Positions 24,548 to 64,000 of a stretch of 64,000 nt of DNA are shown here, in pieces (positions within the stretch are counted from its first letter, which is position 1; each line of letters opens with the position of its first letter). Source of the DNA: Streptomyces megasporus (GTDB lineage Bacteria > Actinomycetota > Actinomycetes > Streptomycetales > Streptomycetaceae); NCBI RefSeq assembly GCF_000718985.1, contig NZ_JODL01000022.1, positions 17,990 to 81,989 of the forward strand, read 5' to 3'. The translations under genes were made by a program, and so were the position numbers. A model generated the notes under the pieces. The model had not been told where the DNA came from, made no database searches, and saw nothing but the letters and a program-made list of their open reading frames with translations.

Positions 24548-25834
24548 TCAGGGGCGCGGGACTCGTACGGCCAGGGCCAGGGTGTCGTCGGGGTGGAGGA
24601 TGATGGTGTGCATGTCCTCGGCGATCGCGCCGGGAATGTCCGCTATGGGCTTGTCGGCGTGGCGGCGGGCCGCCTCGATCAGCCGCTCCTCGCCCTCTCG
24701 GGGGTCGCGGCGGCTCTCGGTGAGCCCGTCGGTGTAGAGGACGAGCAGGTCCCCCGGCGCCATCGTCGTGTGCAGTAGGCGCTCGCTGCCCGCGAGCGGG
24801 TAGCCGATGCCCCGGCCGCGCGCCTCCAGGTATCTCGGCTCGCCCTCGGCGGGCAGCAGCAGGGCGGGCGGGTGACTGCCGTTGGCCAGGTACAGGTCGC
24901 CGGTTTCGGGGTTGACGCGGGCGAGCAGCACGGTGGACATCAGCTCGCTGTCGAAGGGCATCAGGATCTCGGCGGTCCGGGCGACGATCGACTCCAGCGG
25001 GTGCCCCTCCAGGGCCAGGGTCCGCACCGCGTGGGTGACGTTGAGGGCGCCTCGGGTGCTGGTCACACCGTGGCCGAGGGCGTCGACGACGGTGATGTGG
25101 ACGGTGCCGTCGGGCAGTTGCAGCCAGTCGTAGAGGTCTCCGCCGGTGGGCGCGTCGGTGCCGGCCGGCGCGTAGTGGACGGCCATCTCCAGGCCCTCCA
25201 CCTCGATCGGCGCGGGCCGCAGGGCGTCCTCCAGCTCGCGCAGGGTCTGGCCGTGGGCCTTGCGCAACTGCTCGTCGCGCTCCTCCAGTTGGACGTAGAG
25301 CGCGAGGGTGCCCCGGTTGGTCTCGGCGAGTTCGTGCTTGAGCCTCCGGTGTTCGGCGGTGAGGACGTCGATACGGGCCAGCGCCGCCCTCAACTCCTGC
25401 TCGACGGCCCGCAGTTCGGAGGAGGCGGACTCGTCCGCGGGCCGCGGCACACCTCCGTTGGGAGACGGCCGCGCACCGGCCCCGTCGGACGGTTCGAGGA
25501 GCGGCACGCGCCAGGTGGCCGCACCGTTCTCGGTGAACTCGACGGGCAGGGGCAGGTTCGGGAGTTCACGGTCGGTGTCGGCGGCCCGGAGGGTGTCGAG
25601 CGTGACGGCGAGGTGCCGTGCCATGCCCTCCGGCTCCTGTTCGACGGAGGTCTCCAGCCGTACGGGCCGTCCCGCCGCGAGTTCGGTGCGGGCCAGGTCC
25701 GCCGCGGACAGCACCAGGCGTGCCCTGGTCTCGACCGGCAGCCGGTGAGAGCGGGCGATCCCGCGCACGGCCCGGCGGAGGCTCGGCAGCGTGTGGTGGG
25801 AGGAACGGTGGGGGGTGTGGTTGTCGGTTGTCAT
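24548..25834 (-). CDS. SpoIIE-type PP2C phosphatase with coiled coil (last gene of rsb operon)
   Basis: A 428-residue protein. Residues 1-120 form a helical/HATPase-remnant-like sensor region. A heptad-rich coiled coil follows (about 140-205), then a SpoIIE/PP2C phosphatase domain with metal-binding Asp in GGDLYDW, VVDALGHG, NGSHPPAL, YTDGLTE and the final DDTLALAVRV. Such enzymes dephosphorylate STAS-domain anti-sigma-factor antagonists. It follows 7 bp after the HATPase-phosphatase gene at the end of the rsbR-rsbS-rsbT operon, so it likely resets that switch. Confidence 0.9.
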   Translation of the reverse strand: MTTDNHTPHRSSHHTLPSLRRAVRGIARSHRLPVETRARLVLSAADLARTELAAGRPVRLETSVEQEPEGMARHLAVTLDTLRAADTDRELPNLPLPVEFTENGAATWRVPLLEPSDGAGARPSPNGGVPRPADESASSELRAVEQELRAALARIDVLTAEHRRLKHELAETNRGTLALYVQLEERDEQLRKAHGQTLRELEDALRPAPIEVEGLEMAVHYAPAGTDAPTGGDLYDWLQLPDGTVHITVVDALGHGVTSTRGALNVTHAVRTLALEGHPLESIVARTAEILMPFDSELMSTVLLARVNPETGDLYLANGSHPPALLLPAEGEPRYLEARGRGIGYPLAGSERLLHTTMAPGDLLVLYTDGLTESRRDPREGEERLIEAARRHADKPIADIPGAIAEDMHTIILHPDDTLALAVRVPRP

Positions 25835-61785: not shown

Positions 61786-62478
61786 ATGCCCGTCACCGTC
61801 TCCGACCTGTCCGCCTTGGGGGAGCTTCCGCTGCTCCACCGCGCCGAACCCGACGGCACCGGCACCTGGCCCATGCTGCTGTGGGTTCCGGGCGGGGGCC
61901 GGCGCATGATCTCCAGCGCGCTGCTGGGCGGCGGCGTCGGAGAGCGCCGGTGGGTCCTCAACGCACAGGTGCCGCCCGGCTACCGACGGTTGGACCCCGC
62001 GGCGCACCTGTCCCGACTGGCGGCGGACGCCGGGATGTCGGGACCGGGCGTGGGGTTGATGACGGCCGCGTCCGTCGGCGACCGCTGTTGGGCCGCGGAC
62101 GAGGGGGTGGAGGCCCTGGTGACCGCCGGGATCGGGGTGCGCGGTTGGGCGGCCGATCCGACGCCCGGCCGCCCCGGTCCGGCCCCCGCGGGGACGATCA
62201 ACATCGTGGTGTCCGTGCCGGTTCCGCTCTCCGACGCGGCGCTGGTCAACGCCGTCGCCACCGCGACCGAGGCCAAGGTGCAGGCTCTGCGGGACGCCGG
62301 CGTGGACGCCTCCGGCACCCCGACCGACGCCGTGTGCGTCGCCGCCCCACGACCGGAGGAGGGCCGGGCGGCGGAGCCGTTCGCCGGTCCCCGCTCGACG
62401 TGGGGCGCCCGGATCGCCCGCGCGGTGCACCGGAGCACCCGCCGGGCGTGCGAGCGCGCGGTCCGCCACGCGGACTGA
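61786..62478 (+). CDS. cbiZ: Adenosylcobinamide amidohydrolase CbiZ
   Basis: A 230-residue CbiZ-family protein: RRWVLNAQVPPGYRRLDPAAHLS, GPGVGLMTAASV, EGVEALVTAGIG, GTINIVVSVPVPLSD and the EAKVQALRDAG helix. CbiZ cleaves the aminopropanol arm of adenosylcobinamide or pseudocobalamin to give adenosylcobyric acid for salvage. TAGGGT lies 6 nt before the ATG, so the message may be leaderless. No other cobalamin gene or B12 riboswitch is near. Confidence 0.85.
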   Translation: MPVTVSDLSALGELPLLHRAEPDGTGTWPMLLWVPGGGRRMISSALLGGGVGERRWVLNAQVPPGYRRLDPAAHLSRLAADAGMSGPGVGLMTAASVGDRCWAADEGVEALVTAGIGVRGWAADPTPGRPGPAPAGTINIVVSVPVPLSDAALVNAVATATEAKVQALRDAGVDASGTPTDAVCVAAPRPEEGRAAEPFAGPRSTWGARIARAVHRSTRRACERAVRHAD

Positions 62479-62599
62479 GGGGCGCCTGAAGCCGCCGCCC
62501 CTCCCCCACGCACCCCACGCGGAACGGCGGAACAGGGGAGCCTCGGCACCCCGAGTATCGGGGATCACACCGAAATCGGACGGTGCGGCCGGAATGTCC

Positions 62600-62797
62600 C
62601 GGAAGGGATGGTGGTTGTACCCACCGTGGATGTCGGTGGTGGGACAGTGTCCCCGGGCCTCACCCATTGCCTGCGAGGACGATCGTTCGGCTGAAGCCTC
62701 GCAGAGCCACTCGCCGCGTAGGCGACCGCCATCACCGGCATCCACACCCCACAGACGGCGCCGGCCAGGCCTCCCCCCGACCTGGTCGGCGCCTTTT
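62600..62797 (+). ncRNA. Candidate structured RNA ending in an intrinsic terminator
   Basis: A closing helix of 17 consecutive pairs joins 62626-62642 (GTGGATGTCGGTGGTGG) to 62729-62745 (CCATCACCGGCATCCAC), with only two G-U pairs. It encloses a branched loop with an 8-bp hairpin CTGCGAGG/CCTCGCAG (62671-62678/62697-62704), a TCGCC/GGCGA hairpin (62711-62715/62721-62725) and a short GAC/GTC hairpin. Upstream, GGTGG/CCACC (62610-62614/62621-62625) can form, and CCACCG (62621-62626) can instead pair CGGTGG (62634-62639), competing with the closing helix. A terminator with TTTT follows. No match to riboswitch or RNA families I know. The 5' end is uncertain. Confidence 0.5.
62757..62797 (+). terminator. 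Intrinsic terminator with U-tract
   Basis: A 13-bp stem (GGCGCCGGCCAGG / CCTGGTCGGCGCC, one G-U pair) with an 11-nt loop is followed at once by TTTT. True U-tracts are scarce in this genome, so this supports plus-strand termination here. Confidence 0.8.
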
Positions 62798-62957
62798 CAT
62801 GCCCGCTTCCCCGTGCCCGGCGCGTCCGGCGCGCGCGACGGCGAACGCGGCACCCCTCGGCGCGGCGCCCCCGGCACCACACTCTCGATTCCGCTCGGGC
62901 GAACTCGACGCGGAGGCTCATACCCCCGCCCCGTATCCACGGATCGTCGGTCACTGC

Positions 62958-62987
62958 TTGCCAAAGATACGGGGAGGGGGTATACAT
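62958..62987 (+). promoter_or_regulatory. Promoter of the copper genes
   Basis: TTGCCA (62958-62963), 17-18 nt spacer, TATACAT (62981-62987). The spacer holds ATAC-GGGGAGGGG-GTAT, a possible second CsoR half-operator. Confidence 0.65.
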
Positions 62988-62999
62988 GAGCGCGTCAAC

Positions 63000-63020
63000 G
63001 GATACCCCCACTGGGTATCC
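63000..63020. promoter_or_regulatory. CsoR-like operator
   Basis: GGATACCC and its exact complement GGGTATCC flank CCACT. The TACCC-n-GGGTA shape fits copper-sensing CsoR operators. It lies 26 bp before the CopZ-like start codon, just downstream of the promoter. Confidence 0.6.
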
Positions 63021-63046: not shown

Positions 63047-63364
63047 ATGAGCTCGGAACCCCTGCCCCTGGAAACCTCGTCCTGCTGCTCTTCCGACGGC
63101 GGCTGCCGCTCGTCCGACACCTCGCGGGCCACGGCCGAGCCGGGCACCGGTCGCACCACGGTCTACGCGGTCACCGGCATGAGCTGCGGTCACTGCGCCG
63201 CCACGATCACCGAGGCCGTGGGCGGACTCGACGGTGTCCTGTCCGTCGAGGTGGACGTCGCCGCCGGCCGGGTCACCGTCACCACCGACGGCGCACCCGA
63301 CGACGCCGCGCTGGCCAAGGCGGTCGACGAGGCGGGCTACGAGCTCACCGGCCGAGCCGCCTGA
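63047..63364 (+). CDS. CopZ-like copper chaperone with Cys-rich N-terminus
   Basis: A 105-residue protein. The C-terminal ~68 residues are a heavy-metal-associated domain with the metal motif MSCGHC (Cys47, Cys50). The N-terminal extension has a Cys-Cys pair at 13-14 and a Cys at 20, possibly a second metal site. It should bind Cu(I) and hand it to the ATPase. ATG after GGAGAAG. Downstream of the CsoR-like operator. Confidence 0.9.
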   Translation: MSSEPLPLETSSCCSSDGGCRSSDTSRATAEPGTGRTTVYAVTGMSCGHCAATITEAVGGLDGVLSVEVDVAAGRVTVTTDGAPDDAALAKAVDEAGYELTGRAA

Positions 63365-63461: not shown

Positions 63462-64000
63462 ATGACCACCCACGTCGACGAAAGCGTCGAGGTCGAACTC
63501 GCCATCGGCGGCATGACCTGCGCCTCGTGCGCCGCCCGCGTCGAGAAGAAGCTCAACCGGATGGACGGCGTGACCGCCACCGTCAACTACGCCACGGAGA
63601 AGGCCCGCGTCACCCACCACCCGGACATCGGCGTGGAGGACCTGATCGCCACCGTCGAGGCGACCGGCTACACCGCCACCCCGCCCGCCCCCGAACCCAC
63701 CGGTACCACCACCGACACCGGCGGGGGGACGGCGGGGACGGACGGCGACGACGAACTCCGACCGCTGCGGCAGCGGCTGGTCACCGCGGTGGCGCTGGCC
63801 GTGCCCGTGATCGCGATGGCCATGGTCCCGGCCTGGCAGTTCACCTACTGGCAGTGGCTGTCCCTGACGCTGGCCGCCCCGGTCGTCACCTACGCCGCCT
63901 GGCCCTTCCACAAGGCGGCCCTCACCAACCTCCGGCACGGCTCCGCCACCATGGACACCCTGGTCTCGCTGGGGACGCTCGCCGCCTTCGGCTGGTCGCT
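63462..64000 (+). CDS. copA: Copper-translocating P-type ATPase CopA (5' part only)
   Basis: The first 179 codons are in the window; the gene runs off the right edge. It has an N-terminal metal-binding domain with GMTCASC (Cys20, Cys23), a Gly/Thr linker (about 77-92) and the start of the membrane domain (VALAVPVIAMAMVPAW, WQWLSLTLAAPVVTYAAWP, MDTLVSLGTLAAFGWS). This is the P1B-type Cu exporter pattern. ATG after GAGGAGC. The catalytic DKTGT and CPC motifs lie outside. Confidence 0.92.
   Translation, partial: MTTHVDESVEVELAIGGMTCASCAARVEKKLNRMDGVTATVNYATEKARVTHHPDIGVEDLIATVEATGYTATPPAPEPTGTTTDTGGGTAGTDGDDELRPLRQRLVTAVALAVPVIAMAMVPAWQFTYWQWLSLTLAAPVVTYAAWPFHKAALTNLRHGSATMDTLVSLGTLAAFGWS

Follow-up and report, generated by a model that had tools for sequence, protein, structure and literature searches.

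SigR and SigH are central regulators of thiol stress in antibiotic producers and in mycobacteria. Other ECF sigma factors have similar promoter boxes, and in Escherichia coli the small RNAs RybB and MicA are made under stress in dependence on the ECF factor sigma-E. The 6S and Ms1 RNAs are recognized by a long bulged hairpin that resembles an open promoter. In passages of PMC3489674 the Streptomyces coelicolor SigR consensus is given as GGGAAT[G/C]-16-[C/G]GTTG, with Mycobacterium tuberculosis SigH quoted too, and this spacing is the same as that of GGAAY and GTT separated by 18 nucleotides; sigma-E promoters have been modelled with spacers of 16-17 bp, counted from other box limits (a passage of PMC6767563). 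The part of PMC5472188 that deals with the SigR regulon names proteases, chaperones, transcription and translation, and the word sRNA occurs 0 times in that paper. Likewise, among titles, abstract starts and passages of the open-licence PMC literature, no small-RNA arm of the SigR/SigH regulon was found. From S. coelicolor, a passage of PMC11077062 describes scr0792, located in the gap between SCO0791 and SCO0792, as an RNA polymerase-bound small RNA of about 85 nt.

Here we analysed an intergenic element in a 64,000-nt stretch of Streptomyces megasporus DNA (the window), and find that it is real and larger than previously described, representing a new RNA family and not a copper switch. The element lies on the plus strand between the CbiZ gene (PF01955), which ends at 62478, and an HMA-domain gene starting at 63047, where a sequence-only reading had placed it; a further ORF with an N-terminal HMA domain, the copA of that reading, starts at 63462. 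The 17-bp helix, the branched interior with two good hairpins and the 13-bp terminator with a U-tract that had been claimed were all recovered. The helix P1 is formed by 62626-62642 and 62729-62745, which pair across 86 nt and enclose P3 and P4. Its 5′ arm is followed by a joining segment (J1/3, 62643-62668) that contains GUCCCCGGGCCUCA and is largely invariant across genera in the alignments, by the P3 hairpin (62669-62707), with a conserved internal loop and an apical GAUCGUUCGGCUGAAG, and by the P4 hairpin (62711-62725; UCGCC-GCGUA-GGCGA), whose loop is of the GNRA type (GAGA, GUGA or GCGA) in many relatives. The intrinsic terminator (62757-62797) has arms at 62757-62769 and 62781-62793 forming 13 pairs, one of them G-U, around an 11-nt loop, with TTTT at 62794-62797; a strict terminator scan with a loop range of 3-8 nt listed no site. 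The folding energy of 62600-62797 was -104.2 kcal/mol, compared with -82.95 (sd 4.79) for shuffled sequences (z = -4.44; 0 of 200 as good), and the segment 62623-62750 by itself gave a z of -3.47. Because the structure is in addition conserved with compensatory changes in relatives, it lies far beyond chance, in agreement with the earlier statement that such a helix was unlikely to arise randomly.

A partial key reduced 206 nhmmer matches (many of them one place found twice) to 135, of which 126 were parsed and 117 represented distinct cores. Alignment A1 held 42 of 44 listed copies (L038 and L068 were left out as aberrant or truncated) and alignment A3 held 65 of 66 (L040 was left out). Most loci came from the top of the score range, which biases the sample towards close relatives, and copies related to one another do not count as independent. 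In the 65-copy alignment, the pairs of the proposed structure are formed in 94.9% of cells, and changes on both sides were observed in 20 of the 32 pairs. Doubly changed cells numbered 221, compared with 65.0 (sd 5.8) in shuffles (0 of 500 reached the observed value), and sliding the partners by 1-3 columns gave 38-50% pairing with 24-43 doubly changed cells; these covariation figures are not probabilities, because the structure was drawn on one of the aligned sequences and the related copies are not independent. Two-sided changes were found at 13 of 14 P1 pairs and, with pairing kept, at 6 of 10 pairs in the lower P3 stem; P4 is nearly invariant, so that the covariation evidence bears on P1 and P3.

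Pairing of the P1 arms at 11 or 12 of 12 positions was seen in 95 of the 117 copies, a level reached by 286 of 1742 combinations with arms swapped between copies and by 11 of 585 with one arm shuffled. Duplex energy with a cut-off at -12 kcal/mol failed to separate native from swapped arms (117 of 117 and 2274 of 2317 duplexes passed; means -29.7 and -21.4), and for this reason the pair counts were used. Minimum free energy folds of single relatives sometimes depart from the consensus (L008, L130), which counts against the small-RNA explanation given below. Taken together, the family has a conserved fold with compensatory changes beyond those of the controls.

Additional pairings were rejected. 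A local GGGAC/GUCCC hairpin within J1/3 is present in Streptomyces copies and absent from other genera, so it was not accepted as a general P2, and a long-range pairing of GCCUC with the GAGGC of P4 is lost in copies that have GCCCC, GUCCC or GCCGC. A coding region was also rejected, given the compensatory changes in the family and the variable apical length of P3, and Streptomyces copies carry a TGA in the frame that looks open elsewhere. Long variable apical hairpins on P3 were seen in many copies of one family (f19).

Searches against Rfam 15 gave no match at gathering score for the window, and in 13 related loci none except tRNAs elsewhere in two of them. The best sub-threshold match, ftsZ-DE (RF02985; 18.7 bits, gathering 72.2), falls at 62737-62796, where it covers the terminator together with some of the P1 3′ arm and leaves the core untouched, while msiK (RF01747; 15.6 bits, gathering 33) lies outside the element and touches the putative copper operator region. 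Core sequence words of the RNA were found in no open-licence PMC paper, and the Streptomyces and actinomycete motifs shown in passages of PMC11109978 and PMC2864571 differ from the family by their description. The proposal of a new structured RNA, possibly a small RNA, is thus upheld by the missing Rfam match, the covariation of P1 and P3 and the multicopy family, and the element belongs to a large RNA family with no entry in Rfam 15.

When 60 relatives and the strain's own genome were searched at the DNA level, 40 of the 61 genomes had matches, and the own genome proved to contain another copy (G000:C25:3180-3395, 83%). A covariance model (R1) built from 42 copies matched 121 of 199 sampled Streptomyces genomes and 94 of 394 sampled genomes of the class (41 of 137 genera). 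At phylum level, 11 of 396 sampled genomes gave a match: ten belong to the class and one, weak (27 bits), lies outside it. Stricter filters were applied whenever more than 40 genomes were searched, and these may miss weak copies. Named holders are Streptomyces (with a plasmid copy in S. tendae 139 at NZ_CP043960.1:132026-132115), [Kitasatospora] papulosa, Nonomuraea gerenzanensis, Micromonospora acroterricola and metagenome-assembled genomes of Pseudonocardiales. A pattern search run with one letter too many yielded 15 loci, six of which are family members (L142, L143, L145, L151, L152, L154). A suspected second window copy at 25081-25234 was rejected, being absent from the R1 matches; other matches in the window reached at most 15.9 bits.

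Upstream of P1 the window contains a putative SigR/SigH-type promoter, GGAAT-N18-GTT, at 62591-62616 on the plus strand (-35 at 62591-62595, -10 at 62614-62616). Its occurrence here would mean nothing by itself, because GGAAY-N18-GTT is found at two sites in the window against a chance mean of 0.82. Across the family the motif precedes 93 of the 117 distinct copies, that of the window included, compared with 0.12 for composition-shuffled upstream regions, and other spacers (14-17 and 19-23) precede 0 or 1 copies. Moreover, the motif keeps a nearly fixed place before P1: in 59 of the 93, the end of GTT lies 29 nt ahead of GUCCCC. Boxes and spacing are shared with the SigR (Streptomyces) and SigH (mycobacteria, corynebacteria) regulons; the difference from those regulons as described is that the product here is an RNA. 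A G precedes GGAAY in 52 of the 93, and the two copies of the own genome have C (the window copy) or T at this position and therefore fall outside the stricter GGGAAY pattern. Judged by boxes and spacing, the window copy thus carries a candidate SigR/SigH promoter in which the leading G of GGGAAT is absent. Counted against the assignment are this absence, the similar boxes of other ECF sigma factors and the 24 copies in which the exact motif is missing, 22 of them from outside Streptomyces; several of these have, by eye, a housekeeping-type, TAGnnT-like -10 instead.

The position of the promoter bears on the competing upstream pairing (GGTGG/CCACC, about 62610-62625) that had been described as part of the RNA. 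This pairing exists as DNA, but it overlaps the promoter -10 and is probably untranscribed; with the promoter at 62591-62616, transcription would start at the foot of P1 and the pairing would be promoter DNA. At the other end, terminator-like sequence, defined as a stem of 7 or more pairs and 3 or more T among the following 8 nt, comes after 69 of the 117 copies, compared with 62 of 585 shuffles. A hairpin considered without the T-run does not tell copies from shuffles (115 of 117 copies, 500 of 585 shuffles).

These features make it probable, in our judgement, that the element is a small RNA gene of its own, controlled by a SigR-type ECF sigma factor, and that its product acts in trans; recognition by SigR itself, expression and action in trans are what we infer here. 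Under thiol-oxidative stress, a SigR/SigH-type sigma factor would start transcription at about 62623-62625, and the transcript, predicted at about 172-175 nt (62623-62797, plus strand; start from the promoter, end from the terminator), would end at its own terminator at 62797. The RNA would fold into a closed multi-branch structure with P1 around the conserved single-stranded C/G-rich segment, P3 and P4, and would serve in trans as an RNA branch of the stress regulon, contacting mRNAs or a protein through the invariant unpaired GUCCCCGGGCCUCA and the loops of P3 and P4. Such a transcript would resemble RybB and MicA as a short trans-acting RNA with a stress ECF promoter and its own terminator, whereas the closed multi-branch fold distinguishes it from them. 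We know of no sequence or structural relation between the family RNA and RybB or MicA, and of no Hfq partner in actinomycetes. With one covariance model, one conserved promoter and many natural copies, some on plasmids, the family offers an immediate probe.

The sequence-only reading had also suggested a switch ending transcription before the copper locus, which found no support. When CbiZ, the HMA gene and the CopA start were sought in 197 other copy-bearing sequences (83 of them at least 8 kb, the rest shorter), only L001 and L088 contained them, and both represent the window's own place. In these sequences no other copy lies next to cbiZ or copA, an outcome named beforehand as refuting; it refutes the cis reading and not the RNA itself. 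In addition, 31 of 82 loci have the following gene on the opposite strand (genes called with a GC3 rule), and most copies have their own promoter. Many Streptomyces copies occupy a common chromosomal site between PHP- or HAD-type and dehydrogenase-like genes (the latter by eye), a site different from that of the window copy.

Directly before the HMA gene are inverted repeats, ATACCCCCGCCCCGTATCC / GATACGGGGAGGGGGTATAC and GGATACCCCCACTGGGTATCC, at 62920-62986 and 63000-63020, and the weak msiK match falls on them. These repeats look like operators of the kind bound by CsoR-like copper repressors, and the copper genes are therefore probably under their own control. A copper-linked leader was rejected on the basis of the repeats at about 62920-62986 and because none of the other copies examined adjoins copper genes or cbiZ.

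A more general cis-acting function was considered, with the core as aptamer and, as expression platform, either the terminator or, for Nonomuraea-type genomes, a HAD gene's ribosome-binding region. Like transcription-terminating riboswitches, the RNA has an aptamer-like core with invariant unpaired nucleotides and an intrinsic terminator after P1, and in 51 of the 82 loci the gene that follows shares its strand. In the Nonomuraea-type family f3, the RNA stands before the same HAD-hydrolase gene in 9 of 9 loci examined, five of which have no visible terminator and a start codon about 90 nt after P4; in these f3 loci the RNA may have become a leader. In four of the nine, by eye, RNA and gene are separated by a strong hairpin. 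Four loci have a DUF6417 gene downstream on the strand of the RNA, and it is clear in only these 4 of 164 sequences. Unlike known transcription-terminating riboswitches, the family has no constant downstream gene, most copies have their own promoter, and genes on either strand follow the terminator; with the exception of f3, neither a constant 5′ UTR place nor functionally related genes were found, and upstream as well as downstream genes vary across the family. Tandem copies in L113 and L128 have promoter-like sequence before each RNA, with a spacer of 19 in one of the four. We therefore regard a riboswitch or attenuator as unlikely for the family, and the RNA as independent of its neighbours, consistent with the free-standing small RNA proposed above.

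Several loci show arrangements worth recording. In L043, L044, L055, L030 and L041 (Nonomuraea-type), the RNA without visible terminator is followed by short inverted repeats around AGGAG that precede the GTG start of the HAD gene, where translational control is possible. The small DUF6417 gene (PF19981) after the RNA is found at L157:5199-5402, L160:5207-5410, L162:5199-5405 and L032:4614-4823, in plasmid or chromosomal loci, and the RNA and this gene may be a unit; a weak fifth match is present in L143 (E 0.013). Tandem duplicates of the RNA gene lie at L113:4874-5275, L128:4497-4895 and L112:4468-5776.

The copy number and replicon distribution raise the question whether the RNA belongs to a mobile or repetitive element at the ends of linear replicons, with an RNA-like fold that would serve the element and not the host. 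Up to seven copies were found per genome (G020, G869), the RNA is present in only part of the genus (the 121 of 199 genomes above), and copies occur at 53 places on 43 plasmid-collection records, one of which is an 11.85 Mb Nonomuraea replicon. Nevertheless, conservation spans promoter to terminator while the flanks are unrelated. No constant transposase or integrase neighbour was found: among 17 plasmid regions taken from the 43 records with flanks of 2.5-5 kb, 14 were annotated, and of these three contained an IS transposase and one further region a group II intron maturase. There was no match in 50,697 phage records, nor in viral contigs searched with one exact pattern. A constant association with mobility or phage genes was thus absent from the plasmid, phage and viral searches, and we regard a mobile element as very improbable. 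Equal-scoring copies were noted near both contig ends in two genomes (G887:C1:149061 and 8383411; G851:C1:100952 and 10165577), which would fit a position of the RNA within terminal inverted repeats.

Finally, the RNA could bind RNA polymerase in the manner of 6S, Ms1 or scr0792 and so adjust transcription under stress. Like the family, these are structured small RNAs; scr0792 and Ms1 (scr3559) come from Streptomyces, and scr0792, in the passages of PMC11077062 that describe it as RNA polymerase-bound, is short and intergenic. Several single-contig Streptomyces copies lie about 0.55-1.5 Mb from a contig end (G948, G813, G882, G916), and we estimate from its SCO number that scr0792 would be at a comparable distance, but other single-contig copies are far from the ends (G007, G868). 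Furthermore, the family RNA is multicopy and measures about 120 nt without and 172 nt with its terminator, compared with about 85 nt for scr0792, the window and 13 related loci gave no Rfam family-model match, and the fold has no 6S-like long bulged hairpin. The RNA scr0792 might belong to the family. A polymerase-binding RNA as the explanation of the family appears improbable.

With respect to partners of the proposed trans-acting RNA, exact matches to complements of the invariant segment, among those shown, were the RNA loci themselves, and one-mismatch matches were scattered with no evident recurring target; a protein partner is therefore as likely as an mRNA. We hold as evenly balanced the broader proposal that these structured small RNAs, frequently present in several copies and found across the class as well as on linear plasmids of Streptomyces, form the non-coding arm of the actinomycete SigR/SigH thiol-oxidative response, and that their invariant unpaired core contacts one conserved cellular partner, be it a protein (RNA polymerase, for example) or mRNAs of one ribosome-binding-site class.

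The stricter pattern GGGAAY-N18-GTTG occurs at 37 sites in the strain's own genome, compared with 0 for the reversed pattern, and these sites constitute a ready-made candidate SigR regulon. By a simple rule, 24 of the 30 sites fetched have a candidate ORF within about 250 nt, and eight of ten scanned ORFs gave NCBIfam matches. FtsH, HtpX, IspH and HflX scored above the curated cut-offs, and two more names, Clp ATPase and principal-type sigma factor, come from matches below most specific cut-offs; ORFs of these kinds correspond to the regulon classes in the passages of PMC5472188 cited above. One of the sites precedes a second HMA-domain ORF that, by eye, is copper-chaperone-like (L281).
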